In this document: positions 26,669 to 46,318 of the stretch, one piece after another | How the letters are laid out: every line of letters begins with the position of its first letter | Position numbering within the stretch: the stretch's first letter is position 1 | Assembly: GCF_900110435.1 (NCBI RefSeq) | Contig: NZ_FODT01000012.1 | Location: 62,001 to 126,000 of the forward strand | DNA from: Rhodopseudomonas pseudopalustris | GTDB taxonomy: Bacteria > Pseudomonadota > Alphaproteobacteria > Rhizobiales > Xanthobacteraceae | Reading direction: 5' to 3' | DNA: 64,000 nucleotides | Made by a program: the position numbers and the translations under genes | Notes under the pieces: generated by a model | Told to the model about the DNA's origin: nothing | What the model saw: only the letters and a program-made list of their open reading frames with translations | Database searches by the model: none

Positions 26669-26884
26669 ATGCCGTGTGGCCACGACGCGATGCTTGAGCT
26701 GCAGCAGTTTTTCGCGATCTCATCAGACCTGGCCGCGGCGAGACGGGCCTGTGACTGTGCGGCCGTAGAACACCACATAGACGAGCTGGAAATCATGCGG
26801 ATGCACAGCGAAAGCGTCCGGATCAGACGCGCTTGCACCGCGCAGATCAACGCGGCGCAAGAGGCTGTCGCGGTCCACGCATGA
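26669..26884 (+). CDS. Small phage early protein, unknown
   Basis: A 71-residue, mainly helical protein with no recognised domain; Cys/His residues are scattered (MPCGHDAM, RACDCAAVEHH). AGGTGGAAT upstream gives a ribosome-binding site and the stop overlaps the rusA start (ATGA). It is the first gene of the rightward early operon, a place where phages often carry small regulators such as Cro, but there is no clear HTH. Confidence 0.6.
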   Translation: MPCGHDAMLELQQFFAISSDLAAARRACDCAAVEHHIDELEIMRMHSESVRIRRACTAQINAAQEAVAVHA

Positions 26885-27306
26885 TTTATTTCGAGTTAGC
26901 CGGCGCGCCCCGCGGCAAAGAGCGCGTGAAGCAGGCGCGCGACGGCCACTCATACACCCCCGAGCGCACCGTCACCTTCGAGGGGCGTCTAGCCTACGCG
27001 GCGCAACTCGCGATGGGCGATCGACCGCCGTTCGAGGGGCCGCTTCGCCTTGAAGTAACTATGCACATGCCCATCCCAGCGTCGAAGCCGAAGGCGTGGC
27101 GCTCGGCCGCGCTGCGGGGCGACATCAGGCCGACGGTTAAACCCGATTGGGATAACGGTGGAAAGCTCACGGACGCGCTCAACCTTATCGTGTGGATCGA
27201 CGACAAGCAGATTGTCTCCGGCCACGTCGAGAAGTGGTATAGCGACCGGCCGCGCACCGAGGTCCGCGTGACGCCCATAAATCCAGCAGAAGGAATATTC
27301 GCATGA
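26881..27306 (+). CDS. RusA-type Holliday junction resolvase
   Basis: RusA family endonucleases resolve Holliday junctions in phage recombination. The metal-binding signature KPDWDNGGKLTDALN...WIDDKQI (acidic residues about 86-112) is complete, and the family opening FELAGAPRGKERVK is present. Length 141 residues. Its ATG overlaps the stop of the preceding gene. It ends in EGIFA, one of the shared C-terminal motifs of this prophage. Confidence 0.92.
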   Translation: MIYFELAGAPRGKERVKQARDGHSYTPERTVTFEGRLAYAAQLAMGDRPPFEGPLRLEVTMHMPIPASKPKAWRSAALRGDIRPTVKPDWDNGGKLTDALNLIVWIDDKQIVSGHVEKWYSDRPRTEVRVTPINPAEGIFA

Positions 27307-27662
27307 GCCCCGAAATCTATTGCTCTGGTTGCGCAAAGAAGGCATCGGCCTGCGATTGCGGAGACGTGGCCGTGAAGCCCGTTCGTGTGACGATCCTCGA
27401 AGAGGGCGCCGGGCTGACGAACGGCTCGCGTGATGCGAGCTACGGCCCGCCGAAGGTCAATCTCGCGTGCTCGGGCGAACTCAAAGCGGTCTTCCGGAAG
27501 CATATGCGGCGGCAGCTTTCAGCCGGCGAACTCGAAGCGATCGACATGGTGCTGACCAAGGTCGGTCGCGTGGCCACTTCGCCGAAGCCGGTGCGCGACA
27601 CCTATGTCGACGGCGCCACGTACTTCGCGATCGCAGGTGAAATCGCTCTCGATGTGTCTTGA
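27303..27662 (+). CDS. DUF6378-like protein with N-terminal Cys motif
   Basis: A zinc-knuckle-like start (CSGCAKKASACDCG) is joined to a domain with SRDASYGPPKVNL, a helical stretch (LEAIDMVLTKVGRVATSP) and DTYVDGATYFAIAGEIA. This matches the phage DUF6378 pattern as I remember it, of unknown function, often near nucleotide or DNA-metabolism genes. It is coupled to rusA by ATGA. The next gene follows a 70-bp gap with a promoter. Confidence 0.7.
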   Translation: MSPEIYCSGCAKKASACDCGDVAVKPVRVTILEEGAGLTNGSRDASYGPPKVNLACSGELKAVFRKHMRRQLSAGELEAIDMVLTKVGRVATSPKPVRDTYVDGATYFAIAGEIALDVS

Positions 27663-27693
27663 CTGTATCAAATAACAACATACAGTGACATAC
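27659..27693 (+). promoter_or_regulatory. Promoter with TGTATCAAAT and CATAC operator elements
   Basis: TTGACT, a 16-base spacer and TACAGT lie at the very end of the preceding gene, in front of the helicase. The spacer holds TGTATCAAAT (27664-27673); CATAC occurs at 27679 and 27689, ten bases apart, the first overlapping the -10. Confidence 0.55.
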
Positions 27694-27732
27694 AACACCA
27701 AGCCACCAAGATAGATTTGCTCGCAGGCCTGA

Positions 27733-29088
27733 ATGAAACCCTTGCCGACCCAACTATCGGGAAGCCTTTTCCTCGCGCGGAACGCGAACGCCTTGCTGGC
27801 GGACGCCCCTCGCGTGGGAAAGACAGGCACGGCGATCATCGGCGCTGACCTCAATCTTGAGCAGGACATTCTCGTTATCACGACCGCCTCGGGGCGGCCG
27901 GTGTGGCGCCGCTCATGGCCGCTGTGGTCGGACTTCGGCCGCCCCGTGCGCGTTCTCTCGGGGCCTCCCACCGCTCGGGAAAAGCTCGGCGGCGTGACGA
28001 TCGTCGGATGGGGGCAGGTGTCCGAGCCGGCGATGCGCGCAGCGCTGATGTCGCGCGACTTCGACAGAGCCATCCTCGACGAAAGCCACGCCGCGAAGAG
28101 CTTTGACGCCAAGCGTACGGCCGCCGTGTACGGCGACCTGCGAGACGATGGGCAAGCGCTTGAAAAGCGAACCTCGATCACCGCTCGCGCGGCGGGCGTC
28201 TGGTGCTTGTCCGGCTCTCCGCTGCCGCACGACCCGAGCGATGCTTACCCGATGCTGCGCGCGCTTGCGCCGGAGCGCCTGGCCGCCGACCCCGCGCGCG
28301 GCTGGCCGGACGTCACGCGCTACAGCGCTTTCGAGAGCCGCTACTGCATCGTGCGGAAGAAGAAAACGTCTCAGTTTCGGCGCATCAACGTCGTGGTCGG
28401 CGGGCGCAACACCGAAGAGCTGAACGCCCGCCTGAAGGGGTTCATGCTTCGGCGAACGCAGGCCGACGTCGGCATTCGGCCCCCCGTGTACGAGTTGCTG
28501 CCGCTGATGATCAGCGGGGCGCTGCGCCAGCACGCCGAAGGTGACGTCGACCGCGCGGCGATCCTGAAAGCGATCGACGAGGGCCGTACACGCGAGCTGG
28601 AAATGCACCTCGGGCCGCTGCGCCGCAACACCGGCGCTCTGAAGGCGCGCGCCGTTGTTGACGCCGTGAAAGACGAGTTCGACGGCGGCCTCGACAAGAT
28701 CGTGCTGATGTACTGGCACAAGGAAGTCGGCGACGCGCTGCAATTGGCGCTCGAAAAGTTCGGTGTGCTGCGCCTTGACGGATCGACGCCGCCCGCGCAG
28801 CGCGGGCCGATCGAGCAGGCTTGGCTTCACGACAAATCGAAACGCGTCTTCCTCGGCCAGATAGTTGCGGCCGGCGAAGCGATCGATCTCAGCTCGGCGG
28901 CGTTGCTCTGGTTCGTCGAGCAATCCTTCACGCCGAAGGACATGCAGCAGGCATCACTCCGCATCACCAATCACAACCAGGCGCGCCAGGCCGTCGTCCG
29001 CGTCTGTGTGATCGAAGGCTCTATCGACGAGGCAATACAGGCCAGCCTCATGAGGCTATGGGCCGCAATCAGAGAGGTTCTAGGATGA
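27733..29088 (+). CDS. SNF2/superfamily 2 helicase-like ATPase
   Basis: Helicase-like protein of 451 residues. Motif I is ADAPRVGKTGTA (about residues 23-34), a variant Walker A; motif II is ILDESHAAKS (DESH box). The C-terminal RecA-like lobe includes KIVLMYWHKEVGDAL, LDGSTPP and a motif V/VI-like QASLRITNHNQ. Phage SNF2-like proteins are usually placed in replication or recombination. It is coupled to the next gene by ATGA. DNA remodelling versus unwinding cannot be decided from sequence. Confidence 0.85.
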   Translation: MKPLPTQLSGSLFLARNANALLADAPRVGKTGTAIIGADLNLEQDILVITTASGRPVWRRSWPLWSDFGRPVRVLSGPPTAREKLGGVTIVGWGQVSEPAMRAALMSRDFDRAILDESHAAKSFDAKRTAAVYGDLRDDGQALEKRTSITARAAGVWCLSGSPLPHDPSDAYPMLRALAPERLAADPARGWPDVTRYSAFESRYCIVRKKKTSQFRRINVVVGGRNTEELNARLKGFMLRRTQADVGIRPPVYELLPLMISGALRQHAEGDVDRAAILKAIDEGRTRELEMHLGPLRRNTGALKARAVVDAVKDEFDGGLDKIVLMYWHKEVGDALQLALEKFGVLRLDGSTPPAQRGPIEQAWLHDKSKRVFLGQIVAAGEAIDLSSAALLWFVEQSFTPKDMQQASLRITNHNQARQAVVRVCVIEGSIDEAIQASLMRLWAAIREVLG

Positions 29089-29675
29089 GCATCACCGTCA
29101 ACTTTCACGCCGAGACCGTCGCCGCGCTGCACGACGATCTGCAGACGTTGTTGAACGGCTACGGTCGGCACACGACTGCGATCAGCAGCGGCACTGTCGG
29201 CGGCGCGCCGTCGACCGCCGACGCGGCCGAAGCGGAGAAACCGAGGGGCCGCCGCAACACCAGAACGACCGCTGCCGAGACTGCGCAGAACATTTCGACC
29301 GGCGAAGAGCGCGTCGCGCCCGGCGAAGAAGCCGAGGCCAAGCAGGACGCCAAGGACGAAGCGGCCGACACCGCGAAGGAGAAGGCGGCCGAACCGCGGA
29401 AACTGACGCACGACGACGTCAAGAAGATGCTCAGCGGCTACGTTCAGGCTTACGGCATGACCGCCGTGCAAGAAGACGGCAAGGGCTTCATCGGCGCCGA
29501 CAAGGTCAGCGACTTGCCCGACGATCAGGCGGCGCTCGCGAAGGCCGTGATCGGCATCGCCAACGGCGTCGAGAAGAACCCCAACAAGCGCGAAATGACC
29601 GGCGAGCTTTCGGCCGAGAAGCTGGCTGAAATGAAGGCGATCGTTCAGGCGGCGCTCGCCGTCAGCGGCAAGTAA
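29085..29675 (+). CDS. Phage protein with charged linker, unknown
   Basis: A 196-residue protein with a short N-terminal part (MSITVNFHAETVAALHDDLQ), a long Glu/Ala/Lys/Asp-rich low-complexity linker (about residues 45-105), and a compact C-terminal domain (LTHDDVKKMLSGYVQAYGMT onwards). The layout resembles phage proteins placed beside ssDNA-binding or recombination genes, but no family is named. The ATG overlaps the helicase stop. Confidence 0.7.
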   Translation: MSITVNFHAETVAALHDDLQTLLNGYGRHTTAISSGTVGGAPSTADAAEAEKPRGRRNTRTTAAETAQNISTGEERVAPGEEAEAKQDAKDEAADTAKEKAAEPRKLTHDDVKKMLSGYVQAYGMTAVQEDGKGFIGADKVSDLPDDQAALAKAVIGIANGVEKNPNKREMTGELSAEKLAEMKAIVQAALAVSGK

Positions 29676-29689: not shown

Positions 29690-30973
29690 ATGACGAAGCC
29701 GGTCGATCACGGAGCCCGTGACCATGCGACGTGGTCGGCCAGCTCGACAGCGCGTAACTGGCTCTGCTTGGGCGCGATCGCGCTCAACACGCGTATCACC
29801 ACGCCGGAGAAGGAAAGCGAAGCGTCGGCCTGGGGGACGGCGTGCCACCAGCTCAGCGAGAAGTGTTTCGCCGCGGGGCGGGACGCCGACGAATTCATCG
29901 GCACGACCGAGCGAACGAAACAGCGTTCGGTCGAAGTCGACGAGGAAATGGCCGAGACGGCGCAGGTTTATGTCGACTACGTCCGTGGCCGCGTGGCCGA
30001 ATACAACGCCGAGTTTCCAGAAGGCCCAGCGCCGATCGTCGTTCACGAGCAGTATTTCTCGCTGAACGACCTCAAGACGCCGTTCGATGCGGGCGGCACC
30101 GGCGACACGGTGATCCACTTTCCGCGCTGGCGGTCGCTCGAAGTCGTCGACCTGAAGGGCGGCCGGGGCGTCGTCGAGGCGGCCGACAACAAGCAGTTGC
30201 GCACCTATGGACTCGGCGCGGTGCTGGCGAACCCGGGGCGCGACGTCGAGGATATCAAGGTGACGATCGTTCAGCCCCGCGCGCCGCACAAGGACGGCCG
30301 GGTGCGGAGCGAGACGTTCCACATTGGCGACCTGATCGATTGGACGACCGAGCTGCTGCAGCGCATGGCGCTCTCGAAGCAGGCGCAAGACGAAATCAGC
30401 GAGCTACCTTTCGCGGCGTGGACGGCGAAGTGGTTGACGCCGGGATCGTGCAAATTCTGCCGCTCCGAAGGCTCATGCCCCGCGCTGGAGCAACGCGCGC
30501 TCGACGCGGCGCAGGTGTGGTTCGACGACCTTGACAGGCCGCAGATCAGCAATTCGCCAACTAACGACACGCCCGAGGCGCTGTCGAAGACGCTCGATCT
30601 GCTCGATATGATCCAAGACTGGATCAACGCACGGCGCGCCTTCGCGCACCAGCAGTCCGAGGCGGGCGTCGATATCCCGAACTATGTGCGCGTGCCGAAG
30701 GTCGGCCGGGAGAAATTTATCGATGACGAAGCCGAAGCGAAGGCCCGGTCGGTCTGCCGCGACGCAGGCTTGCCCGAAAGTAAGTACCTGAACCCGGCCA
30801 AGACGAAGACGCCGAAGCAGATCAGGAAGGCGCTCGGCAAGGCGAAAAAGAGCTTGTTGGCTGGCCTGTCGGTCACGCCATCCGAAGGTAGCGACCTAGT
30901 GCGTGCTGACAAGACGACGCGGGAGGCAATTCGGCCTGCCGCGGATCGATTTTTCGAAGAACTGAAGGACTGA
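29690..30973 (+). CDS. DUF2800 family protein, RecB/Cas4-like nuclease
   Basis: The 427-residue protein has the DUF2800 pattern: GTACHQLSEKC, then a PD-(D/E)XK-like core with GDTVIHF, LEVVDLKGG and NKQLRTYGLGA, and a C-terminal Cys group GSCKFCRSEGSCPA that could hold an Fe-S cluster or zinc. DUF2800 and DUF2815 usually sit side by side in phage replication modules, as here. Probably an exonuclease in recombination. GGGGAG upstream sets the start. Confidence 0.85.
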   Translation: MTKPVDHGARDHATWSASSTARNWLCLGAIALNTRITTPEKESEASAWGTACHQLSEKCFAAGRDADEFIGTTERTKQRSVEVDEEMAETAQVYVDYVRGRVAEYNAEFPEGPAPIVVHEQYFSLNDLKTPFDAGGTGDTVIHFPRWRSLEVVDLKGGRGVVEAADNKQLRTYGLGAVLANPGRDVEDIKVTIVQPRAPHKDGRVRSETFHIGDLIDWTTELLQRMALSKQAQDEISELPFAAWTAKWLTPGSCKFCRSEGSCPALEQRALDAAQVWFDDLDRPQISNSPTNDTPEALSKTLDLLDMIQDWINARRAFAHQQSEAGVDIPNYVRVPKVGREKFIDDEAEAKARSVCRDAGLPESKYLNPAKTKTPKQIRKALGKAKKSLLAGLSVTPSEGSDLVRADKTTREAIRPAADRFFEELKD

Positions 30974-30978: not shown

Positions 30979-31599
30979 ATGGGATCGAGATCGGAAGACT
31001 TCAAGACGGGTTTGGTGCGCGTGGCGTTCGCCAACGGCTTGTTCGAACTGCAAGAAGACGATTGGGGTAACAAGAATTGGACGGCGTCGCTGCTGATCCC
31101 GAAGGCCGATAGCCTTGCGGTCTACGAGAAGGCCGCGCTTGAAGCGGCCACGGCCGAGTGGGGCGACAAGGCGCGTCAGATGATCAAGGATAAGGTCATT
31201 CACAGCCCGTTCCTCGACGGTGACGGCCCGCAAGGCAAGTCGAAAAAGACGGGCGATCCGCACGCCGGCTTCCCCGGGCACAATTTCATTCGCGTGAAGT
31301 CGGGCGCCGATTATCGGCCGGCACTGATTGACCGCCAGAAACTGCCGATCGTCGACAAGGCGAAGCTCTATAGCGGCTGCTGGGGCTACGGAGTGCTGCA
31401 CTGCTTCACCTGGGACAACGACAAGAAGGGCAAGGGCCTGACGTTCGGGATCTCCATGTTCCAGTCGACCGAGAAGGGCGACCGGCTAGGTGGGGGCGGT
31501 GGTGTCGACGTCGACAAATGGGCCGAGAGCATTCCCGACGAGGGCAACGCGCCCGAGAGCACGAAGACCGGCGCGGGAGCTGGGGGCCTCTTCGGCTAA
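30979..31599 (+). CDS. DUF2815 family, Enc34-like ssDNA-binding protein
   Basis: A 206-residue protein with the DUF2815 sequence pattern (TGLVRVAFANGLFELQ, then WTASLLIPK and GCWGYGVLHCFTW). This family includes the phage Enc34 ssDNA-binding protein, an OB-fold. It ends in a Gly-rich linker and GGLFG, a tail that recalls the flexible, partner-binding C-terminus of bacterial SSB though without its acidic run. Position directly after DUF2800 supports the call. Confidence 0.85.
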   Translation: MGSRSEDFKTGLVRVAFANGLFELQEDDWGNKNWTASLLIPKADSLAVYEKAALEAATAEWGDKARQMIKDKVIHSPFLDGDGPQGKSKKTGDPHAGFPGHNFIRVKSGADYRPALIDRQKLPIVDKAKLYSGCWGYGVLHCFTWDNDKKGKGLTFGISMFQSTEKGDRLGGGGGVDVDKWAESIPDEGNAPESTKTGAGAGGLFG

Positions 31600-31670: not shown

Positions 31671-31976
31671 GTGGCAAAGGTAGACAATCCGCGGGCCGTC
31701 GCGGGCGACAACAGCGGCACCGAACAGGCTGCTACCAAGTTCGCAAAGGACGCGCTGAAAGCGCTCGTCGAGCGCATCGAGCGCTTGGAAGACGAGAAGT
31801 CGTCGATCGCCCAGGACATCAAGGACGTGTATGCCGAGGCGAAAGGCAACGGCTACGACGTCAAGGTGCTGCGCAAACTGATCGCGATGCGCAAGCGTGA
31901 TCAGAACGAACTCACCGAAGAAATGACCATCCTCGAAACCTACGCGCACGCGCTCGGCATGGGGGTGTTCGGATGA
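31671..31976 (+). CDS. DUF2312 / GapR-like nucleoid-associated protein
   Basis: The 101-residue protein carries a long coiled coil ([20 protein letters not shown] onwards) and [16 protein letters not shown], matching DUF2312, the family of Caulobacter GapR. GapR clamps over-twisted AT-rich DNA ahead of replication forks and stimulates topoisomerases. A phage copy could serve viral replication. It differs from the host protein by an N-terminal [14 protein letters not shown] segment and the C-terminal GVFG motif. Coupled to the exonuclease by ATGA. Confidence 0.88.
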
Positions 31977-32518
31977 ACCACGCCATGATCGATTTGGAAA
32001 CCTTCGGCACGCGCCCCGGCTGCGTGATCCGGTCAATCGGCGCCGTGCAGTTCGACCTCGACGGCAACACCGGCGCGACGTTCTACCGGAATATCAGCAA
32101 GCAATCGTGCCTCGACGTTGGCCTCGTCGTCGACCCGGCGACTGAACGCTGGTGGGCTGAACAAGCGCCTGCTGCTCAGCGAGCGCTGAGCAACGACCAA
32201 CGCCCTCTGCGCGAGGTGGCGGAAGAGTTTCGCGCGTGGTTCACTGCCAATGCCGAGTTTGCATGGGGCCACGGCGCGTCGTTCGACCCGCCGTTATGGG
32301 AGGCCGCCTGCGTAGCTGCCAAAGCTCTTGTGCCGTGGAAGTTCTGGAACGTCCGCGACACGCGCACCGTGTATCACGTCTTCAACTTCGAAACACGCGA
32401 TCTACGCCGCCGCGGCGTGCACCACAACGCATTAGACGATGCGATCTATCAAGTCGATTGCGTCGCCGCTGCGCTGAAGAAAGGCTTGCCGGCCCAAGAC
32501 GGCGGGGTGTTCGCATGA
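31973..32518 (+). CDS. DEDDh 3'-5' exonuclease (RNase T/Rv2179c-like)
   Basis: A 181-residue exonuclease fold: Exo I MIDLETFG with the metal-binding Asp and Glu, Exo II in [12 protein letters not shown] and Exo [14 protein letters not shown] with His and Asp. The insert and length fit the Rv2179c/DUF5051-type exoribonucleases found in phages. It may trim RNA or DNA ends. Ends in GGVFA. ATGA overlaps on both sides place it in the early operon. Confidence 0.88.
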
Positions 32519-33012
32519 GCATCAAGGCTGTTGGTTCCGGGCTGCTTGCCAGCGCTCAAGCCTTCGTCGATCGCAAATACACCACCCGCGCGGACGCCCG
32601 ACAGAGAGAAATGGGCTTGGCGTACGTCGAAGCCGAACGCCAAGACTTGGCTCGTGAGATAGCAAGCTTCGCGCAGCAAAACGGGATCGAAGACAAGCTG
32701 AACCAGCTCGCCGCCGACGGCCGCCTGCACGGTTTCACGCTTTGGAAGTGCCCCGACCATTGGCAGGCGAACATGCAGACCGGGGCGTCGGCCGGGTGGC
32801 GCTGTATGCGTGGCGCGACGCCGGGCGAAGCGATCCGAAAAGTGCTCGACATGGATTATGTCGACGCGATCGACGACGCGCTCGGCGAACCGCCGCTGCC
32901 GATCATGACGCGCAGCGAGGCGGATTTCGCGGAGGCTGCGCTGGCTGACGTGCTCGCTGAAGAGGGCGACGAGCCGCCCGCTGGTGACGACGAAGACAGC
33001 ATCTTCGGATGA
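32515..33012 (+). CDS. Conserved phage protein with acidic tail, unknown
   Basis: A 165-residue protein with a helical N-terminal half, then LHGFTLWKCPDHWQANMQTG and GWRCMRGATPGEAI, and a strongly acidic end ([17 protein letters not shown]). The acidic run followed by a hydrophobic-Phe end is the closest in this prophage to an SSB- or gp2.5-type tail. No family is named. Start and stop both overlap the neighbours by ATGA. Confidence 0.72.
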   Translation: MSIKAVGSGLLASAQAFVDRKYTTRADARQREMGLAYVEAERQDLAREIASFAQQNGIEDKLNQLAADGRLHGFTLWKCPDHWQANMQTGASAGWRCMRGATPGEAIRKVLDMDYVDAIDDALGEPPLPIMTRSEADFAEAALADVLAEEGDEPPAGDDEDSIFG

Positions 33013-34262
33013 CCGCCTACTACAACGAGATCGACCCGTTCGCGGCGGCGTGGCTTCGCAACCTGATAGTTGCGGGCCACATCGCGCCCGGCGACGTGGA
33101 CGAAAGGGACATTCGGGATGTTCGGCCTTCTGACCTCCGAGGATACAGACAAGTCCACCTGTTCGCCGGCATCGGCGTCTGGAGCCGGGCTTTCCGGGGG
33201 GGCGGCATCCGGGACGACGAACACGGTTGGAGCGCGAGTTGCCCATGCCCGCCGTTCAGCTCCGCAGGAAAGAAAAAAGCCTGCCCAAGCTGCGGTGGTA
33301 CAAACCCTGTCCCGCATGTTGGACGAACTGGCTACTTCGTATGCTGCGGTTGCGGCCACGCGTGGCTGGCCGACGACAGGCACCTCTGGCCCGAGGTTTG
33401 GCGGCTCGCGCGAGACTGCCGGCCTGGCCGAATTTACGGCGAGCAGGTTGCGAGCAACGACGGACGAATTTGGATCGACACTGTTTGTCCTTCGCTGGAA
33501 ATCCTGGGCTACACCTCTTGGGCGGTTGATACCTGCGCTGCGGGCTTCGGTGCGCCGCACATCAGACAGCGACTGTATTGGGTGGCCGACGCCAACCGTG
33601 ACGGACGCGCACCGGGGAGTGAAGGACGCGCGCCCGTGGGATACGGGGCGGCCTCTCGGGCAGGTAGCAGCGCTTACGTCATGGGTGACGCCGAGCGCTC
33701 GCGACTGGAAGGACACAGCGGGCATGGCAACGACCGGGACCAACCCGGACGGTTCGGAGCGCTCACGAGTAGATCAGCTACCGCGGCAGGCGCAGCTCGC
33801 GAGCTGGACAACGCCGTCCGCGACGGACGGCGACCGCGGTGGGTCTTTGACGCCGAACATGACGGGGACTTCGCTGACGCAGCAAGCCGCGTTCAATCTG
33901 GCGGCGTGGCCGACGCCACGGGCAGAGGACAGCGAGAGCAGCGGAGCGCGCTGGAGCCGGGGCACGTTCGATACGCTGACGGCGGTAGCAACGCATCTGG
34001 CGGCGTGGTCGGCGGAGGGCGCAACTGGCGGCCCGGCCCGACTAACGGCCTCTGGCAAGATCCTGACTGGCTGCTCTGCCGGGATGACAAATGGCGGCCA
34101 GTTGAACCCGGCGCATTCCCGCTGGCTCATGGGCTTGCCGGCCGAGTGGGACGCCTGCGCGCCTATGGCAACGCGGTCAACCTCGCGCAAGCCGAAGGAT
34201 TCGTCCGAGCCGCCAACGAAGCGATCGAACATCTTCGACTGAACGTCGGAGTGTTCGGATGA
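33009..34262 (+). CDS. DNA (cytosine-5-)-methyltransferase with zinc-ribbon insert
   Basis: A 417-residue C5 methyltransferase: motif [11 protein letters not shown] (about 50-59), the catalytic Cys in SCPCPPFS (about 80), [22 protein letters not shown], and the C-terminal LRAYGNAVN. Between the PC motif and RHLWPEVW lies an unusual insert with CPSC and CCGC (about 92-115), a likely zinc ribbon. The middle (about 195-370) is a low-complexity variable region with repeated DA-type segments. It would methylate cytosine in phage DNA, perhaps against restriction. Another long frame overlaps nearly the whole gene (see 33118-34242). It ends GVFG and is coupled to both neighbours. Confidence 0.88.
33118..34242 (+). 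CDS. Overlapping +1-frame ORF with WxTP repeats (candidate dual-coding gene)
   Basis: Inside the C5 methyltransferase gene, shifted by +1, an open frame of 374 codons starts [15 protein letters not shown] and reads [18 protein letters not shown], then four copies of a W-x-T-P-x-x-x-D unit ([36 protein letters not shown]) and [21 protein letters not shown] recognise this as a type often annotated in phage genomes next to or over dcm genes. It ends NIFD, matching the C-terminal motif of other early proteins here. Long open frames are common by chance at this GC, and the recurrent annotation might itself be a shadow of conserved dcm DNA, so coding is not proven. Confidence 0.4.
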
Positions 34263-34660
34263 TCGACTTCCTCGATCCGAACACCTGGGACGCGCCGCCG
34301 GACACCGGGCGGGTCTGGCTCGACCCGGCGAATGACCTGTTCGCCGTGGTCGACATGATCGATTACGCCTGGGCGCTTCAATGGGCCTGGTCGGTCACGC
34401 CGAACAGCACTGGCCGGAAGTTCTACGCGACGCGGTCGACGCGGCTCAGCGGTCGCGGCGGCCCGCAAACGAAACTCTTCCTGCACAAGGAAATCTTGAT
34501 CCGCGCCGGCGAAATCCCGCCGAGCCGCAAGCACACGATCGGCGACCATCGCGACGGCGACAGCCTGAACTGCCGGCGCGAAAATCTCGCTTGGGCGACG
34601 CCCGTTCAGAACCGTGCGAACCGCCACGGCGTCGCCGCGCTTCAGCGGGTGCTCGTATGA
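34259..34660 (+). CDS. HNH endonuclease
   Basis: A 133-residue protein with the HNH_3 pattern: LHKEILIRAGE, then KHTIGDHRDGDSLNCRRENLAW (His-Asn-His-type core) and TPVQNRANR. Such phage HNH proteins are mostly free-standing homing-type endonucleases that sit between genes. It is joined by ATGA to both the C5 and the N6 methyltransferase, so it may be domesticated. It lacks the C-terminal motif of its neighbours. Confidence 0.85.
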   Translation: MIDFLDPNTWDAPPDTGRVWLDPANDLFAVVDMIDYAWALQWAWSVTPNSTGRKFYATRSTRLSGRGGPQTKLFLHKEILIRAGEIPPSRKHTIGDHRDGDSLNCRRENLAWATPVQNRANRHGVAALQRVLV

Positions 34661-35175
34661 AGGGGATGGGCGGGCACCACAGCCCTGCGGCTGAAAGCGA
34701 CGTGTGGTTGACACCGCCGGAAATCATCGCTGCGCTCGGACCGTTCGACCTCGACCCCTGCGCCGCGCCCGAACCCCGGCCGTGGCCGACAGCGGCTTGG
34801 CACATCACGCTCCCGGAAAACGGCTTGCGGTCGCCGTGGTGCGGGCGCGTCTGGCTCAATCCGCCCTACAGCACGGCTGATATCAAGGCTTGGCTCCCGC
34901 GGCTGGTCGACCACGGAAGCGGCACAGCGCTGATCTTCGCGCGCACAGAGACGGACAGTTTTTTTCGCTTCGTGTGGGAGCGAGCCGACGCCGTCCTGTT
35001 CCTACGTACGCCGCGGCTTCACTTCCACTACCCGGATGGCCGTCGCGCGGAAAACAACTGCGGCGCGCCGTCGGCGCTCTGCGCCTACGGCGAATATGAC
35101 GCCTACCGGCTCGAAACGTCAGGCATCCGCGGCAAGTTCATCCGCTTGCGCGAACCGGCTGGGCTTTTCGCATGA
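34657..35175 (+). CDS. Phage N-6-adenine methyltransferase (Dam family)
   Basis: A 172-residue adenine methyltransferase of the phage Dam type (PF05869): start region SDVWLTPPEIIAALGPFDLD, the catalytic NPPY in VWLNPPYS, and LIFARTETDSFF. It would methylate adenine in phage DNA; target unknown. Ends AGLFA. With the C5 enzyme it gives the phage two methylation activities, which suggests restriction pressure. Confidence 0.9.
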   Translation: MKGMGGHHSPAAESDVWLTPPEIIAALGPFDLDPCAAPEPRPWPTAAWHITLPENGLRSPWCGRVWLNPPYSTADIKAWLPRLVDHGSGTALIFARTETDSFFRFVWERADAVLFLRTPRLHFHYPDGRRAENNCGAPSALCAYGEYDAYRLETSGIRGKFIRLREPAGLFA

Positions 35176-37415
35176 AGGGCCTGGAGATCGATTTCGAGAC
35201 GCGCAGCGACGTCAACATCAAGACGGCCGGCACCTATCTCTACATGGCCTCGGCGCACACCAGAGCGCTGCTCGCGTCATACAGGATCGACGGCGGCCCG
35301 CTCCGCCGCTGGTGCTACGGCGAGCCATGCCCGGCGGACATCGTCGAGCACGTCCGTAACGGCGGGCTCATTTGGGCGCACAACGCCAGCTTCGAACGCC
35401 TGCTCTGGCAGATGGTGCTTACGCCGCGGCTCGGCTGGCCCGAGGTGTCGACCGAGCAATTCCGCTGCACCGCCGCCACGGCCGCCGCCATGGCGCTGCC
35501 GCGCGATCTAGGCGGCCTGTCGGACGCGCTCGATCTGCCGATCAAGAAAAACAAGAACGGCGTGGCGCTGATCCGGCATTTCTCCAGCCCGAGGCGCGCA
35601 AAGAAAGGCGAGCCGCCCGGCATCTACTTCAACGAGCCTGAAGACTTCCCGGAGAAGTTCGAACAGTTTCACGACTACTGCGATGACGACGTGGAAGCCG
35701 AGGCGGGCGCCGCCGCCCGTATGGTGCCGCTGTCCGACGCCGAGCAGGAAATGTACCTGCTCGACCAGCGCATCAATGACCGCGGAATGCGGATCGACAC
35801 GCGCTCGGCGCGCGCCGCGCTGCGCGTCGCCGAGCGTGCGAAGATCCTGCTCGATCGCGACATGAAGGAAGCGACCGGCGGCGCGGTCACGGCCTGCTCA
35901 CAGGTCGGAAAGATCGTCGAGTGGGTCAACGCGCAGGGCGTGCCAATCCCGAGCGCCGCGAAGGCTGAGATTGAAGAGCTGCTCGAAGCCGACGACCTGC
36001 CGGCGCACGTACGCAGGGTGCTGGAGCTGCGGCAGGAAGCCGCGAAAAGCAGCGTATCGAAGTTAAGGGCCTTCCTCGGCCGCGCCGGCAAGGACGGACG
36101 GGTGCGAGGCGCATTCCTGTTCAACGCCGCGAGCACGGGCCGATGGTCATCAGTCGGCGCGCAGATGCACAACCTGCCGCGCCCGCGGAAGGTTTACAGC
36201 GACCTCGCGGAGAAGCACGCGCTCAACCTTGAAACGCTGTTCGAGGCGATCCGCTTCGCCGACCCGAAATATCTGCGCTTCTGCTACGGCGACGAGCTGG
36301 GCAAGCCGCTGCATCTGATCTCCGACGCGCTGCGGTCCTTTATTTGGGCCGCGCCCGGCCACGAGCTGCTGGCGGCCGACTATTCGGGCATCGAGGGCGC
36401 CGTTGCCGCGTGGTTCGCCGGCGAGCACTGGAAAGTGCAGGCGATGTTCGACCTGATCGCCGATCCGAGTTTGCCGGACCTCTACCGGCGGGCCGCCGCC
36501 GGCATCTTCAACACCACGACCGATCTGCTGACGAAGAAAGACCCGCGCCGGCAAGTCGGCAAGGTGTCCGAACTGTCGCTGCAGTATCAGGGCGGCGTCG
36601 GCGCGTTCCGTTCCATGGCGCGAAACTACTCGCTCAAGATCGATCCGGTTTACGGGCCTGCATGGGAGGCGGCCAGCGAGGAACGCCGCGAGGCGGCCGT
36701 GACGCGTTACGAGCAGTGCGTCAAGCGCGGCGAGGCCACAACGAAGCAGCTCTCCCGCGAAGCCTGGCTCGCCGCCGAACTGGTCAAGGTCGGCTGGCGG
36801 GCGACGCACCCGGCGATCGTCGGCGCCTGGCGCGCGCTCGAAGACGGCATTCGCGAGGCGATCGAGAACCCCGGCGCCAAGGTACAGGTGATGAAGTGCA
36901 CCTACCTTGTGACGCGCAGCTTCCTTTGGTGCCGCCTGCCTTCGGGCCGGTGTCTGGCTTACGGCAAGCCGCGTCTCAGCGAGCAGGTTTGGGCGAAGAA
37001 GAAAAACCCGGACGGCTCATGGGCCGACGCCGAAGTGATGCTCCGCACGACCGCCGAGCATCTGGAGCGGGCAGGGCTCGCGAAGGTCGAAAGCAAGGCG
37101 AAGCCGGCCGCGACCGCGCTCGGCGTCGACAGTGTGACGCGCAAGTACGTGCGCTTCGCGCTCTACGGCGGGCTCGCCTTCGAGAACATCGTTCAGGCGA
37201 TCGCGGCCGACCTGCTGCGCAACGGCATTCGGCTGGCCGAGGCGCACGGCTACCCGATCATCGGCCACGTCCATGACGAACTGATCGCCGAGCTGCCGCG
37301 CGGGGTGGCCGATCTCGATTTCTTCCTCGAACTGATCTGCCGGCTCGATCCCTGGGCGGACGGCCTGCCGCTTACGGCGAGCGGCTTTGTCGGGAAGCGA
37401 TACCGCAAGGATTGA
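35172..37415 (+). CDS. Family A DNA polymerase (phage replicative)
   Basis: A 747-residue PolA-type polymerase. The N-terminal 3'-5' exonuclease begins LEIDFETRSDVN and has IWAHNASFERLLW and YCDDDVEAE. Polymerase motif A is LLAADYSGIEG (Asp about 402), motif B the Lys-containing RRQVGKVSELSLQYQGG (about 460-475), motif C IIGHVHDELIAE (Asp about 702). There is no 5' nuclease domain, as in T7-like polymerases. It is the main replicative enzyme of the module and lacks the shared C-terminal motif (ends KRYRKD). Confidence 0.95.
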   Translation: MKGLEIDFETRSDVNIKTAGTYLYMASAHTRALLASYRIDGGPLRRWCYGEPCPADIVEHVRNGGLIWAHNASFERLLWQMVLTPRLGWPEVSTEQFRCTAATAAAMALPRDLGGLSDALDLPIKKNKNGVALIRHFSSPRRAKKGEPPGIYFNEPEDFPEKFEQFHDYCDDDVEAEAGAAARMVPLSDAEQEMYLLDQRINDRGMRIDTRSARAALRVAERAKILLDRDMKEATGGAVTACSQVGKIVEWVNAQGVPIPSAAKAEIEELLEADDLPAHVRRVLELRQEAAKSSVSKLRAFLGRAGKDGRVRGAFLFNAASTGRWSSVGAQMHNLPRPRKVYSDLAEKHALNLETLFEAIRFADPKYLRFCYGDELGKPLHLISDALRSFIWAAPGHELLAADYSGIEGAVAAWFAGEHWKVQAMFDLIADPSLPDLYRRAAAGIFNTTTDLLTKKDPRRQVGKVSELSLQYQGGVGAFRSMARNYSLKIDPVYGPAWEAASEERREAAVTRYEQCVKRGEATTKQLSREAWLAAELVKVGWRATHPAIVGAWRALEDGIREAIENPGAKVQVMKCTYLVTRSFLWCRLPSGRCLAYGKPRLSEQVWAKKKNPDGSWADAEVMLRTTAEHLERAGLAKVESKAKPAATALGVDSVTRKYVRFALYGGLAFENIVQAIAADLLRNGIRLAEAHGYPIIGHVHDELIAELPRGVADLDFFLELICRLDPWADGLPLTASGFVGKRYRKD

Positions 37416-37680: not shown

Positions 37681-37876
37681 CCTCCGGGCGGCGCGACCTG
37701 AATTGTCGCTCGCGCTTTACGCCTACACGCCGGGCGGCGCCGTCACGCTGGAAATCCTGCATGACGGGCAGTCCTACAAGTTCACCGGCGCGACTGTCGC
37801 CGAAGCAATCCTCGCGGCTTTCGCGCCCCCGCCGGAAGCCGCGCCATCACCGCCTGACAGCGACATTTTCGATTAG
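37661..37876 (+). CDS. Small phage protein, unknown
   Basis: A 71-residue protein with a beta-rich centre (ELSLALYAYTPGGAVTLEIL) and helix (ATVAEAILAAF), a Pro-rich linker and the end DSDIFD. The start overlaps the preceding gene by 20 bp. No family recognised; the linker plus motif suggests a tethering tail. Confidence 0.65.
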   Translation: MLPSLDDLRAARPELSLALYAYTPGGAVTLEILHDGQSYKFTGATVAEAILAAFAPPPEAAPSPPDSDIFD

Positions 37877-39246: not shown

Positions 39247-39247
39247 A

Positions 39248-41333: not shown

Positions 41334-43607
41334 ATGCTCCAGATCATGCGCGCGCCGCAGACCTTCGCTGATTACGCCGCGCTCGGATACAAGCGCTTAG
41401 TTCCGATCATCCCGCCGAATGCGCCGATCAGCGAAACGTCGTCGCTGTTCAAGCGCATCGGCACGCCGCAGGATAGTCGCGGCAAGGCGGTCGGCGTCCG
41501 CGGAGCGAACGGCTGGTACGGCTACGACTGGCTCAACCAGCCCGACCCGGACGCCGCCGACCTCAACCGCTGGCAGCGCATGGGCGCCGGCATCGGCATC
41601 ATGACCGGCCAGGAAGCGCTCGCGATCGACGCCGACACGCTCGATCAAACCTGCGCCGGCAAGATCCTGATCGCGGTGATGGAGCATTTCGGCGCAGTGC
41701 CGACCCGCATTGGCCGCTCGCCGAAGGCGCTGTACCTGATCCGTCTCAGCGCGCCGATGCAATACACGCGCGTCGAGTTCGGGCCGCTGAACGAACAGGG
41801 CCGGCGCGTCAGCCGCGTCGAGTGCCTCTCGGCCGGCAGGCAATTCGTCGCGCACGGCGTCCACCCGGTCACACTGCAGCCCTACGTGTGGACCACGCCG
41901 CTTGTCCCGCAACACCAGCTCCCGATCTTCGCACCCGAGCAGGTGCAGGCCTTCATGGCGCACCTGCGTGAGATCCTGCCGAACACCGGCGAGATCGTTA
42001 CCGAGGGCGCGCAAACAGAGATCGCGCAAGCCTCTCTCAGAGGCGACCCCGAGAAGGTCCGCGCCGCCGTGAAGGCGACGCCCAACAACTCGGCCATGTT
42101 CGGCTCACGCGAGGCCTATCGGGACTTCGGCTATGCGATCAAGGCCGCGCTCCCGGACGACGAGCCCGAGGCTTTCGAAATCTTCGCCGACTGGTGCGCC
42201 AGGTGGGAAGACGGCGACAACGATCCCGACGTGGTAGCCGCCGACTGGCGGCGCATGAAGCCGCCATTCCGCCGCGGCGCAAACTGGCTCTACGAGCTGG
42301 CCGAGCAACACAGCGGCGGGCAATTTCAAAAGGTCGACGCCTTTTTCGACAAGCTGCCGGACGAACCGGAAAGCCTGTTCCCCAAGGACGCGCCCGAACG
42401 CCCCGAACCGATCACGATCAAATGGGTCGCACCGCTCGATTGGGAGGGCGTCACGCCGCCCGTCCGGCGGTTCAAGATCGCCAACATGATCCCGGACGGC
42501 GAGGTGACGTTGCTCACGGGCGCCGGCGGCGTCGGCAAGACGCTGCTCGCGCAACAGAGCATGACATGCGTTGCGCTCGGCAGGCCGTTCCTCGGCCGCC
42601 GCACCGCGCAGTGCAAGGTGATGATGTTCCTGTGCGAGGACAGCGAAGACGAACTGCACCTGCGGCAACGGGCGATCAACAAAGCTCTCGGCGTCGGCAT
42701 GGCCGACGTCTCGGACGTGCTGCGCATCGCGTCCCGCAAATACATGGACAACCTGCTGTGCACCTGGGACCGCGCCACCGGCACGATGAAGCGGTCGGAC
42801 GTCTGGCACCGCCTGCGCGACGACGCGGTGAAGTGGGGCGCGGGCCTGATCGTCGTGGACACGATCGCCGACACCTTCGGCGGCTCCGAGATCGACCGCA
42901 GCCAGGTCCGGCAATTCGTGCAAGCGTGTCTCGGCCGGCTGGCGCAGGACATCGGCGGCGCAGTGCTCGCGCTCGGCCACCCGTCCAAGGCGGGCCAGGC
43001 GGTCGGCGGCGACGGCACGTCGGGGTCGACAGCGTGGCACGCGTCAGTCCGCAGTCGGCTGTACCTGCAACACGCGTCGCAAGATGGCTCGGGCCCCTTC
43101 CGCCGGCTGGAGAACCGCAAGGCGAACTACGGCGCTGCGGGCGACACGTTCATGCTGCGCTGGCACGCCGGTGCGTTCGACATGGTAAGCGGCAAGACGC
43201 TCGGCGCCGACGACATGGACGCGCTCGGGGGTGGTGCCGAGGGCTCGGCTTCGGCCGCTGCCGACGCCGGCTTGGCGGGCGTTTCGGGTGGTGCTGGGGC
43301 GGCGGGCGGCGGCGCGCCGGCGATGAGCGACGTGATCGACGACGCGCTGCTGGCCGCCGTTGTCGAGGCTGCTGGTGAGGCCGAGCCGGTCGCGCTGTCG
43401 TCGTCCGCTAACGCCCGGGCGTACGCACCCAAGGTGCTGCGGAAACGCTCGGCGGTGCTGTCGCTTTACCCGATGGACGACGTTGAGGCGGGTTGGCACC
43501 GCGTCGTCAAGGCGGGGCGGGTGAGGGCGGCCCCCGTCGGCAGGAAGGCTAATCGAATGCCGATTATGTCATACGTTTTGCATACAAGCGCAGACGTTTT
43601 CAACTGA
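41334..43607 (+). CDS. Primase/polymerase-like and RepA-like (AAA) helicase fusion
   Basis: A 757-residue replication protein. The N-terminal part (about residues 1-220) resembles prim-pol domains: GIGIMTGQEALAIDAD, RIGRSPKALYLIRL and VECLSAGRQFVAHGVHP. A middle linker leads to an AAA/RecA-like helicase of the RepA type with Walker A LLTGAGGVGKTLLA (about 392-405), Walker B LIVVDTIADTF and LALGHPSK. An Ala/Gly-rich segment then joins to a small C-terminal domain and the end SADVFN. This is the likely primase-helicase of phage replication. An ATG at 41346 is an alternative start. Confidence 0.85.
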   Translation: MLQIMRAPQTFADYAALGYKRLVPIIPPNAPISETSSLFKRIGTPQDSRGKAVGVRGANGWYGYDWLNQPDPDAADLNRWQRMGAGIGIMTGQEALAIDADTLDQTCAGKILIAVMEHFGAVPTRIGRSPKALYLIRLSAPMQYTRVEFGPLNEQGRRVSRVECLSAGRQFVAHGVHPVTLQPYVWTTPLVPQHQLPIFAPEQVQAFMAHLREILPNTGEIVTEGAQTEIAQASLRGDPEKVRAAVKATPNNSAMFGSREAYRDFGYAIKAALPDDEPEAFEIFADWCARWEDGDNDPDVVAADWRRMKPPFRRGANWLYELAEQHSGGQFQKVDAFFDKLPDEPESLFPKDAPERPEPITIKWVAPLDWEGVTPPVRRFKIANMIPDGEVTLLTGAGGVGKTLLAQQSMTCVALGRPFLGRRTAQCKVMMFLCEDSEDELHLRQRAINKALGVGMADVSDVLRIASRKYMDNLLCTWDRATGTMKRSDVWHRLRDDAVKWGAGLIVVDTIADTFGGSEIDRSQVRQFVQACLGRLAQDIGGAVLALGHPSKAGQAVGGDGTSGSTAWHASVRSRLYLQHASQDGSGPFRRLENRKANYGAAGDTFMLRWHAGAFDMVSGKTLGADDMDALGGGAEGSASAAADAGLAGVSGGAGAAGGGAPAMSDVIDDALLAAVVEAAGEAEPVALSSSANARAYAPKVLRKRSAVLSLYPMDDVEAGWHRVVKAGRVRAAPVGRKANRMPIMSYVLHTSADVFN
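43570..43585. promoter_or_regulatory. CATAC pair 11 bp apart
   Basis: CATACGTTTTGCATAC lies inside the last codons of the primase-helicase, repeating the CATAC iteron at 43570 and 43581. The related CATACGTTTTAGC occurs at 44375 and GATACGTTTTGC at 57381. Confidence 0.5.
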
Positions 43608-44368: not shown

Positions 44369-44382
44369 CGATAGCATACGTT

Positions 44383-44535: not shown

Positions 44536-44672
44536 GGCAGCAACAGGCGGACGCGGGACAGGAAAAACTTGACGGTTTCGGTTGTCGCTTCGCCGCGGTC
44601 GGCGCGGCCCATCGCCGCGCCTCTTCTCGGATCGCCCATCCATCCAGTTGCGGGCAAGGTTGGCGCGGTCAT
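44532..44672 (-). CDS. Mini-protein coupled to the clamp gene
   Basis: A 46-residue frame whose ATG overlaps the clamp stop (ATGA) and whose stop overlaps the next GTG (GTGA). Sequence is basic with a hydrophobic end (ETVKFFLSRVRLLLP). The double coupling is the main support. Unknown function. Confidence 0.45.
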   Translation of the reverse strand: MTAPTLPATGWMGDPRRGAAMGRADRGEATTETVKFFLSRVRLLLP

Positions 44673-45397
44673 TCCGCGGCCTGCGCGGTTGCCGTCGTCG
44701 CGGGCGTCGGCGCGTTGAACCAGCCGGGCAACGAGCCGTGGATTTCAGAGGCCCGTGTCGGCATAAGCAACATGAACACGGCAGGCGACCGCGGCCAAGT
44801 GATTAGCGCGGGTCCACCTCCAGGGCTCTCATCGTCCTGCGCGGTGATTAGGATCTGATCCAGTCGGTTGACATCGCTTGTTGATGCGCGAGGCCTGAAG
44901 TCGTGGAAGTGCGCGGCGATTTCGGCACCGATCGCGCAAATCAACCCCAGGTGCTGAGAGGCGAAAGCCGGTGACACGACGTTCTTGAACGCCTTCGGCA
45001 CAGCGCGACGGTAGTCCGGAAAAGACCCGTCTATGCGAACGTTATAGGCGGCACCCATCGGTCCGAACCCGCGTTCCGTCTTGCCGCTCTTGTCGCTGTA
45101 TTCGAAAGCTAGACAAACCCGCGCGTCATTGGAACCGGTGTCGATTATAACGTCGCGGCGCTCCTTACCTTTCGGCCTGCAGAGCTTCAATGCGTCGCGC
45201 AGATTGATGATTGCGCTTTCGTTGGCTTCGCCGCTTTCGTCGAAAATGCAGATCAGCTTACGGCCATCGGTGGCGGTCATTCGCACACCGCCGCCGCTCT
45301 GAGGTTCGACGAAAACGCCATTGAGGTAGTATCTCGTTTCCTCGTTCGAAGCGGCGAGCATGGCTATGCGGAACAAGTTAGCGTTGAAACGTAGCAT
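44669..45397 (-). CDS. DnaN-like sliding clamp homologue
   Basis: A 242-residue protein with clamp-like blocks: RYYLNGVFVEP and VRMTATDGRKLICIFD correspond to the DnaN stretch 'G.f.......ATDGhRLa', and PALITWPRSPAVFMLLMPTRA matches the C-terminal 'p.yvvMPMRl' block that forms the partner-binding pocket. It is about two thirds the length of DnaN, so one domain may be missing or reduced. It would tether phage polymerase or other factors to DNA. It is leftward, under the promoter at 45728, away from the replication operon. Confidence 0.75.
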   Translation of the reverse strand: MLRFNANLFRIAMLAASNEETRYYLNGVFVEPQSGGGVRMTATDGRKLICIFDESGEANESAIINLRDALKLCRPKGKERRDVIIDTGSNDARVCLAFEYSDKSGKTERGFGPMGAAYNVRIDGSFPDYRRAVPKAFKNVVSPAFASQHLGLICAIGAEIAAHFHDFRPRASTSDVNRLDQILITAQDDESPGGGPALITWPRSPAVFMLLMPTRASEIHGSLPGWFNAPTPATTATAQAAE

Positions 45398-45423
45398 CGT
45401 AGGTTACCTCTATGGTTTACGTG

Positions 45424-45516
45424 TCAGATGATGAAAGCAAAGATGACGAATGAGCCGGCGAAGCCGATTAGCAGCGTCCAACCGTTGGGCATTTGCACCT
45501 CACTGTCTTGCGCCAT
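45424..45516 (-). CDS. 30-residue single-helix membrane peptide
   Basis: MAQDSEVQMPNGW is followed by one hydrophobic helix (TLLIGFAGSFVIFAFII). The ATG lies in a TGTATCAAATG operator-like sequence, just as the integrase start does. It overlaps the DUF932 remnant by 17 bp and precedes the clamp gene. Short, so the call rests on hydrophobic pattern and place. Confidence 0.45.
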   Translation of the reverse strand: MAQDSEVQMPNGWTLLIGFAGSFVIFAFII

Positions 45517-45658
45517 TTGATACAGCGGTGCCGCGCGACCAGTCGGCGGTCGACATACCGGGGCGCATTTCCTGCCCGAGCCGGTGCCACACATCCATGC
45601 GCGATCCGAGATAGGCGATATTGGCGCGGCCGTTGGTCATGTCGATATTGTGAGCCAT
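45500..45658 (-). pseudogene. DUF932 N-terminal remnant (52 residues)
   Basis: The frame MAHNIDMTNGRANIAYLGSR, MDVWHRLGQEMRPG, MSTADWS matches the N-terminus of DUF932 phage/plasmid proteins ('M..ni....g..a.ay.ge..WHglG....g.s...w'), normally about 300 residues or more. It stops at codon 53 inside the downstream small gene. It is either a truncated copy or a deliberately short version kept as leader of the clamp operon. Confidence 0.5.
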
Positions 45659-45691
45659 TGGGGAAACCTCGTGTTCAGCGGCGTGATTGCC

Positions 45692-45728
45692 GTATGCCTT
45701 ACGTATGTCATTTGTATGCCGTGGTCAA
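45692..45728 (-). promoter_or_regulatory. Leftward promoter with three GTATG iterons at exact 11-bp period
   Basis: GTATG stands at 45692, 45703 and 45714, exactly 11 bp apart. On the minus strand TTGACC (45728-45723), a 17-base spacer and TACGTA (45705-45700) form a promoter for the DUF932 remnant and clamp genes. Its core equals the rightward promoter at 37423. Confidence 0.65.
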
Positions 45729-45844
45729 GTGGTGTGAGATACAAAATTTGCAGATCAAAGGCGTAGGGTGTAAACGGTGATTTCTGGAGTAATTCAACGG
45801 CTTACAAGCCTATGGGGTAATTCGGGGGATTGGAGTTGTGAGAA

Positions 45845-46318
45845 ATGGCGTTGAAGAACGGGCGGTTAACGCCGATGGAGCGGGAGTTTGCGAAGCAAAT
45901 GGCGCGGACAGGCGATAAGCTGTATGCGGCGACAAAGGCCGGCTACGCGCAACCTGCGGTGCGTTCGTCGCAAACGCTGCAGCGGCCGGAAGTGCAGGAG
46001 GAAATCAGGCGGCAGGCGCAACACCGCTTGCGCACCGAAGGCGCGCAGATCGGCGTTGACGTGCTGATCGAGCTTGCCCAGGACAAGAAACAGAAGGGTT
46101 CGACGCGCGGCATGGCGGCGAAAAGCCTGGTGCAGCTATCAGGTATCGCGGGCGCTAACGCGCTTAGTGAGGCGGACCTCGCTGAAATGCCGGCAGAGAA
46201 GATCCGCGGCCTGCTGGCAGAAGCGGAACGGCTGCTGTCCGAGCGCATGGCGGCGGCGCGCGTGATCGAGCACGAGCCCGCAGCGATCGAGGTTGAAGCG
46301 GGCGACGTGTTCGACTGA
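45845..46318 (+). CDS. Terminase small subunit (putative)
   Basis: A 157-residue DNA-binding protein: RLTPMEREFAKQMARTGDKL, AATKAGYAQPAVRSSQTLQRPEV is the Terminase_2-type HTH pattern, followed by helices with EIRRQAQHRLR and ALSEADLAEMPAEKIRGLLAEAERLL. It recognises the packaging site and recruits TerL. Unusually, TerL lies 7 kb away, after fibre and lysis genes. Ends GDVFD. Confidence 0.85.
   Translation: MALKNGRLTPMEREFAKQMARTGDKLYAATKAGYAQPAVRSSQTLQRPEVQEEIRRQAQHRLRTEGAQIGVDVLIELAQDKKQKGSTRGMAAKSLVQLSGIAGANALSEADLAEMPAEKIRGLLAEAERLLSERMAAARVIEHEPAAIEVEAGDVFD

Follow-up and report, generated by a model that had tools for sequence, protein, structure and literature searches.

A shared C-terminal tail on early DNA enzymes of a Rhodopseudomonas prophage and its phage clade, and a candidate docking partner

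We analysed a stretch of 64,000 nucleotides of Rhodopseudomonas pseudopalustris (contig NZ_FODT01000012.1, positions 62,001 to 126,000 of the forward strand), hereafter referred to as the window, which carries a prophage whose early proteins share a C-terminal tail of the form [ILVM]-F-x. Such ends were found in 11/74 window genes as predicted by our own gene caller, all of them in the early module (24.7-46.4 kb, 11/35), with 0/24 in the host part and 0/15 in the late module. The eleven firm cases of the original prediction, which had described a common [GSDN]-[ILV]-F-[GADN] end, were all recovered in place; the observation is thus confirmed, and is stronger than first noted. The tagged proteins, as we call those bearing the tail, are the following.

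26881-27306, forward strand: RusA-type resolvase, tail AEGIFA (PF05866, E 3.5e-28)
30979-31599, forward strand: Enc34/T7 gp2.5-type single-stranded-DNA-binding protein (SSB), tail AGGLFG (PF10991, E 1.2e-25; phrog_112)
31671-31976, forward strand: GapR-like DNA-binding protein, tail GMGVFG (PF10073, E 5.8e-32)
31973-32518, forward strand: Rv2179c-type 3'-5' exonuclease, tail DGGVFA (PF16473, E 1.8e-42)
32515-33012, forward strand: small '32515' protein, function unassigned, tail EDSIFG (no Pfam or PHROG match)
33009-34262, forward strand: C5 cytosine methyltransferase, tail NVGVFG (phrog_363, E 1.3e-64)
34657-35175, forward strand: Dam-type N6 adenine methyltransferase, tail PAGLFA (PF05869, E 1.3e-11)
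37483-37680, forward strand: ribbon-helix-helix (RHH) protein, tail DASIFG (PF07878, 19.6 bits, under its 26-bit cut-off)
37661-37876, forward strand: small '37661' protein, tail DSDIFD (no family matched; our own caller puts the start at 37703)
41334-43607, forward strand: primase-helicase, tail SADVFN (Prim-Pol, PriCT_2, AAA_25)
45845-46318, forward strand: TerS-like protein, tail AGDVFD (PF03592, 25.3 bits, just under cut-off)

Identities were assigned with Pfam and PHROGs, and those of the RHH and TerS-like proteins, as well as that of a sliding-clamp-like protein listed below, are weak, lying under the Pfam cut-offs.

Presence, position and enrichment of the tail

The Phe is penultimate. 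Among window genes the dipeptide [ILVM]F occupies positions -3 and -2 in 11 cases and the final two residues in none, and the same dipeptide with its F at -1 or at -3 to -8 occurs once in total. The comparison with shuffled C-termini proposed in the original prediction was made on the 35 early genes: scrambling the 30 residues at the end of each protein in 5000 trials yielded 0.19 tails on average and never more than 3, against the 11 observed. As a host control, 400 kb of the same genome (C16:1-400000, cut into 20-kb stretches) yielded 7/395 genes with the tail, three of which belong to a satellite-like element described below. Similarly, 9/1213 genes carry the tail in loci whose polymerase and SSB are related but which have few tags and no counterpart of the uncharacterised protein encoded at 29085-29675 (the 29085 protein). 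The gene caller, checked on a stretch of RHph_N65, recovered 58/60 annotated ends with 0 extra, the one coding sequence cut by the stretch end being left out.

The pattern as first written describes a real tail but is slightly too narrow, since A, M or C at -3 and E, S, Q or T at -1 also occur in relatives, in some of which the SSB continues for one or more residues beyond LFG. A twelfth case is doubtful: the alternative-frame open reading frame (ORF) at 33070-34242, with an NIFD end inside the methyltransferase gene, is probably a by-product of the main-frame 'HLRL' end. The related loci L008 and L013 contain a similar shadow ORF, owing to an RL-type end retained in the main frame.

Conservation and concerted choice of the -3 residue

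Relatives were drawn from IMG/VR, one metagenome-assembled genome (MAG) and GenBank phages, and 51 motif genomes were defined as groups of the family A DNA polymerase (PolA) in which two or more genes other than that of the SSB are tagged. Across these genomes the tail is kept by 31/36 RusA, 42/46 GapR, 11/11 exonuclease, 34/35 '32515', 19/21 C5 methyltransferase, 24/36 RHH, 37/39 '37661', 21/24 primase and 11/11 TerS orthologues, and by 1/2 Dam methyltransferases (2 members in total). The SSB has the strict form in 42/48 cases and an F among its last five residues in 48/48. The original prediction had named free loss of the Phe in homologues as an observation that would speak against it, and this was not seen, the tail being kept on orthologues, though the RHH protein loses the Phe in 12/36. 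Further tailed proteins of relatives include two of RHph_N65, annotated as PAPS reductase and HNH endonuclease, and annotated methylases in EBPR siphovirus 2. Other families of the same genomes lack the tail: PolA (0/51), SNF2 (0/45), the 29085 protein (0/48), integrase (0/31), repressor (0/34), '27372' (0/13) and, nearly so, DUF2800 (3/48). Their window members, together with the clamp-like protein, are listed here.

27733-29088, forward strand: SNF2-type helicase, untagged (PF00176)
29085-29675, forward strand: uncharacterised 29085 protein, untagged; short N-terminal part, disordered basic linker and C-terminal four-helix domain
29690-30973, forward strand: DUF2800/PD-(D/E)XK nuclease, untagged (PF10926, E 7.4e-50)
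35172-37415, forward strand: PolA, untagged, end KRYRKD
44669-45397, reverse strand: sliding-clamp-like protein (phrog_3007, E 1.1e-18; PF02767, 22.5 bits, under cut-off)

The phrog_3007 label of the last gene, 'RusA-like Holliday junction resolvase', looks wrong, several phage homologues being annotated as DNA polymerase III beta.

The tail is confined to a clade. Most loci whose PolA is 41-84% identical to that of the window hold 3 to 12 tags, and those at or below 38% identity hold 0-3. Two exceptions lie inside the clade, L252 (0/37 tagged genes) and L254 (1/35), whose SSBs end in GGLFGDDEIPF (L252:9992-10651) and GGLFGEDDISF (L254:9992-10636), that is, in the clade tail followed by an end resembling the C-terminus of bacterial SSB (SSB-Ct). 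A subgroup with Leu tails, to which L231 and L244 belong, is poor in tags, and its SSB extends one residue past LFG. DUF2815 SSBs of other lineages have other hydrophobic ends (AALF, DDLV, DELFN, DDTLPF, TTKLW). A hydrophobic SSB end is therefore general, and its spread to many proteins is seen only in this phage clade. Within the host family the phage type is rare: a search with the SSB in 391 family genomes and 385 genomes of the class revealed no second close prophage, the only match of this type among the 391 being in the own genome and the class search giving one weak 24% match.

Over all tails the -3 residue is V, I, L or A with frequencies of 0.45, 0.28, 0.18 and 0.08, and the acidic fraction is 0.172, vs 0.121 in untagged proteins. 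A variant with Leu for Phe ([ILVMACF]L) is mildly enriched (0.024 vs 0.008 of genes). In L169 and L145, several [SN]VLD, TVLD or [DE]VLA ends, with Leu replacing Phe, stand alongside normal tails in the same genome.

The choice of the -3 residue is concerted within genomes. It is always Val in L167, L163, L146 and EBPR siphovirus 2, always Ile in L008, L170 and L177, Ala in L166 and mostly Ala in L151, L249 and L246, and mostly or entirely Leu in L147, L168 and L245; some genomes, the window included (5 Val, 4 Ile, 1 Leu), are mixed. With SSBs left out, as these mostly keep Leu, the fraction of agreeing within-genome pairs was 0.693 (307 instances, 51 genomes), vs 0.36 after shuffling, with a maximum of 0.416 in 2000 shuffles. 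A permutation preserving protein family (227 instances) gave 0.703 vs a mean of 0.377 and a maximum of 0.451 in 2000, and pruning to less than 65% PolA identity (28 genomes) left 0.688 vs 0.414 (maximum 0.539). Base composition was rejected as the cause: shuffling within quintiles of GC content at third codon positions raised the expectation to no more than 0.397. The same permutation test detected no significant within-genome agreement at positions -4 and -1. Furthermore, synonymous codon identity was the same within (0.344) and between (0.340) genomes, and the agreement is therefore at the protein level rather than a product of gene conversion or of a DNA signal. Ala-type genomes occupy several separate positions of the polymerase tree, adjoining Val or Ile types. 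Agreement at -3 without a neighbour-residue or codon effect argues for selection by one genome-specific partner, and we read the tails as following one genome-specific pocket.

Satellite-like elements with the same tail

A second, satellite-like element of 10.7 kb in the same genome (G000:C16:194795-205550, corresponding to L300:4795-15550) contains three consecutive tagged genes. It is bounded by perfect 50-bp flanking repeats overlapping the 3' end of tRNA-Thr, and encodes an integrase-like protein (26-27% identity to phage integrases), an excisionase-like protein and a resolvase; no capsid or portal family was found among the part of its genes that was scanned. Its primase-helicase is 71% identical to that of the prophage over 619 residues and has a C-terminal part of its own, ending in PIFD, its TerS-like protein (27.6%, E 4e-4) ends in GGLFD, and the third protein ends in GIFG. 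One gene of the element resembles a RHph_N65 protein of unassigned role.

Seven stretches surrounding matches to the primase in further genomes of the host family, from a list of many more, were also examined. Five of them (L323-L327) hold the same trio of primase, third protein and TerS-like protein, with all three tagged in four and the primase untagged in L327, so that the complete set is tagged in 5/6 elements when the own-genome one is included. The remaining two stretches, L328 and L329, with weak primase matches, have 0 tags. None of the models for PolA, SSB or the 29085 protein matched in L323-L327, and integrase-like genes were recognised in 3/5. The satellite-like elements may depend on a helper phage.

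Candidate partners and relation to known systems

Docking on one hub by way of a common tag, as originally predicted, finds good support in the conservation of the tail on non-homologous DNA enzymes and in the concerted -3 residue; the hub named in that prediction, the phage clamp, is contradicted as a common hub by the evidence given below. We propose, with a probability of about one half, that the tail works as a short linear motif at the C-terminus through which early enzymes dock on one partner, for which the phage-encoded 29085 protein is the most likely candidate. The tail, approximately x-[GDSN]-[I/V/L/A]-F-[GDAES] on a flexible linker, would bring the SSB, resolvase, GapR, exonuclease, methyltransferases, primase-helicase, TerS and small proteins onto this common partner. 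The pocket of each genome's partner may accept one size of aliphatic residue beside the Phe, and a change in the pocket would then be followed by the tails of many proteins. A 29085 scaffold, with its basic linker and one or two four-helix domains, would gather the tagged enzymes on phage DNA, and the satellite-like elements presumably use the tail to join the assembly of their helper. The broader picture, in which a scaffold built on a new four-helix domain holds all of the early DNA machinery together by means of a tag with a genome-private -3 code and satellites copy the tag, is put forward tentatively, as falling somewhat short of even odds.

The distribution of the 29085 protein carries its candidacy. 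Its domain is present in 44/44 tag-rich vs 8/47 tag-poor loci (non-redundant), where the corresponding counts are 41 and 33 for SNF2, 44 and 45 for DUF2800, 42 and 10 for GapR, and 31 and 6 for RusA; PolA and SSB are present in all loci of both sets by selection. GapR and RusA are thus also enriched in tag-rich loci, but are tagged themselves, and the 29085 protein is the one core untagged family co-extensive with the tag. Its four-helix domain (about residues 105-195; AlphaFold2 mean pLDDT 90) occurs in one or two tandem copies per protein (e.g. L151:3815-4708; L163:3087-4094). The homologue in Rhizobium phage RHph_N65 is EVC08_022 (L012:17264-17908). Two copies were found in 5/5 Ala-type, 0/14 Ile-type, 5/7 Leu-type and 6/22 Val-type genomes, three of the six Val-type cases (L163, L175, L013) having a partial or weak first match and being assigned by length and eye, and the weak partial matches of L257 (Ile-type, E 0.1) and L025 being left uncounted. 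Simulations of domain copy on three trees, in which a shortened Val-type protein with one match only (L159) was scored as two-copy, gave p values of 0.001, 0.018 and 0.024 for the Ile difference, and of 0.0007, 0.005 and 0.023 for the Ala difference. Structure searches with the 29085 protein returned no match under E 1.4 (PDB, full length), 0.57 (viral library) or 0.94 (PDB, domain); the best hit among sequences of solved structures was a designed repeat protein (E 0.0058), taken as chance, and Pfam and PHROGs gave only weak matches, to uncharacterised families or to families with no plausible link. The 29085 protein is the best hub candidate encoded by the phage.

Several points weigh against this assignment. 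Covariation scans for the hub, at the level of columns and of windows, produced no clear winner: the top ranks were filled by small families with few members (primase, methyltransferase, integrase), two top columns (methyltransferase 415 and RusA 139) were the motif itself, whole-protein covariation with motif class failed to single out the 29085 protein, and single columns were suggestive only (29085 column 136, r 0.36; PolA column 101, r 0.38; 3291 columns). L252 and L254 retain 29085 proteins with two domains yet have almost no tagged genes (0/37 and 1/35), and DUF2800 is, like PolA and SSB (the latter two by selection), likewise present in every tag-rich locus. No 29085 homologue was detected in the satellite-like elements, and a search of five other host genomes gave at best one weak match (E 0.02). 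The domain-copy test was post hoc, chosen after the data had been seen, the family diverges so fast that its absence in distant phages may reflect missed detection, and the identity of the hub is inferred only.

Among other possible hubs, the phage polymerase, as in phage T7, is unlikely but stays a serious rival because of the T7 precedent. The DUF2815 SSB is structurally like T7 gp2.5, and a role of such tails in contacts with the polymerase and the primase-helicase of T7 is indicated (PMC5686142); the primase-helicase of T7 itself binds the polymerase by a tail with a terminal Phe (PMC12230644). PolA is found in every tag-rich locus and never tagged, the tag-rich loci share a PolA clade, and residues 491-534 hold segments specific to the tagged clade and absent from most other phage family A polymerases compared. 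However, PolA is also present in all 47 tag-poor loci (by selection), including L252 and L254 within the clade, and identity alone is no predictor, L185 (44%) being tagged and L252 (50%) not. Resolvase, methyltransferases and TerS would also be unusual partners for a polymerase. A partial Mantel analysis used PolA identity as its control variable, so that PolA as a whole lay outside its reach. The polymerase of EBPR siphovirus 2 (L013:26691-29828; 1045 aa) aligns as two separate parts, perhaps because of an insertion, e.g. an intein.

A host protein, either the host clamp or another replication factor, exploited by both the phage clade and the satellite-like elements appears improbable. It would account for elements that keep the tail without a detected 29085, PolA or SSB gene, and for a family in which a resident helper is rare, as judged from a phage-type SSB match in the own genome only of 391; short motifs ending in LF are also used by clamp partners (PMC11139829). 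The same paper gives the canonical bacterial clamp motif as Q-phi-x-[LM]-[FL], requiring a conserved Gln, and a Gln at -6, four residues ahead of the Phe, was found in only 13/329 tails. The tail was consequently rejected as a canonical clamp-binding motif, with V, I or A often at -3, where they misfit Leu/Met. A conserved host pocket also fails to explain the -3 changes between sister phages.

It is most improbable that the tail is a degradation signal clearing early proteins later in infection. Its C-terminal place, the early genes bearing it and its small terminal residues would fit, but the tail is best conserved on the SSB, a protein required for as long as replication lasts, further residues follow the motif in L252 and others, and fast concerted changes at -3 are ill-suited to a conserved host protease.

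The phage sliding clamp at 44669-45397, the hub originally named, can be set aside almost entirely, although a clamp-like gene does sit in the window. A search of 12 whole records with phrog_3007 and PF02767 found a clamp in 2/12, namely the window's own phage and the bacterial MAG of L011, where the only match sits at one end of another contig, of 17 kb, and not on the 49-kb phage contig of L011. No clamp was detectable with these models in nine other motif-rich records (RHph_N65, EBPR siphovirus 2, L004, L005, L008, L025, L029, L071, L094), eight of 46-51 kb and L029 a 26-kb fragment, where a strongly diverged clamp could escape detection, nor in a tenth, L006, a 27.7-kb contig with 2/13 genes tagged. 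Conversely, five clamp-bearing phages (L014-L018) have no motif genes (0/70, 0/79, 0/73, 0/64 and 0/47).

An origin of the tail in translation signals, with GGAG ... TTCGGATGA serving at once as ribosome site, as ATGA overlap and as codons for G-V-F-G, is scarcely credible: GGAGTGTTCGGATGA at the 33009 gene fits it and 180/347 tagged genes overlap the next gene (own calls), but 130/347 have a gap to the next same-strand gene, 37/347 precede an opposite-strand gene or the stretch end, many different codons are used (among them GTG, GTT, GTC, GTA, ATC, ATT, ATA, CTG and GCG) and agreement within genomes is confined to the amino-acid level, so that, as originally argued, the ATGA junction is insufficient to explain the tail.

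Docking on one partner, with the 29085 protein as its candidate, would have consequences for how phage genomes are understood. These genomes are mosaics, and a portable tail that carries a private code would, if true, let swapped enzymes work together, any enzyme joining the assembly by gaining four residues. The tail provides a sequence-only route to listing the members of a replication assembly, including uncharacterised proteins and satellites. It also yields a new hub candidate without PDB match, and makes the coevolution of socket and tail testable with short peptides.

No description of a shared tail or phage docking motif of this kind was found in searches of the open-access literature, outside which subscription papers and preprints lie, and no satellites of this kind were found in the open-access literature searched. 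The closest known systems are alike in part. As with the gp2.5 and gp4 proteins of T7, flexible C-terminal tails with a key Phe are borne by an SSB and a primase-helicase, and the SSB here is of the gp2.5/Enc34 type with a C-terminal tail, as judged from PF10991, phrog_112 and the F among the last five residues in 48/48. Unlike in T7, where a terminal Phe stands on a highly acidic tail, the Phe here is penultimate, the tail mildly acidic and spread over about ten families. The bacterial clamp motif (QLxLF) likewise places an aliphatic-Phe pair on many DNA enzymes that meet at one hub, whereas the present tail has no conserved Gln, allows Val, Ile or Ala, and occurs in nine other motif-rich records without a detected phage clamp.

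In the bacterial SSB-Ct (DDDIPF), one SSB tail binds many pockets. The SSBs described here also end in a hydrophobic, putative docking peptide, with DDEIPF and EDDISF in L252 and L254, but many tails appear to seek one pocket. Finally, P4-like elements and phage-inducible chromosomal islands (PICI) are phage satellites, with which the elements described here share an integrase, a primase, a TerS-like gene and, for the own-genome element, a tRNA attachment site, no capsid gene being recognised among the genes scanned; they differ in that three of their proteins bear the tail of the phage clade.

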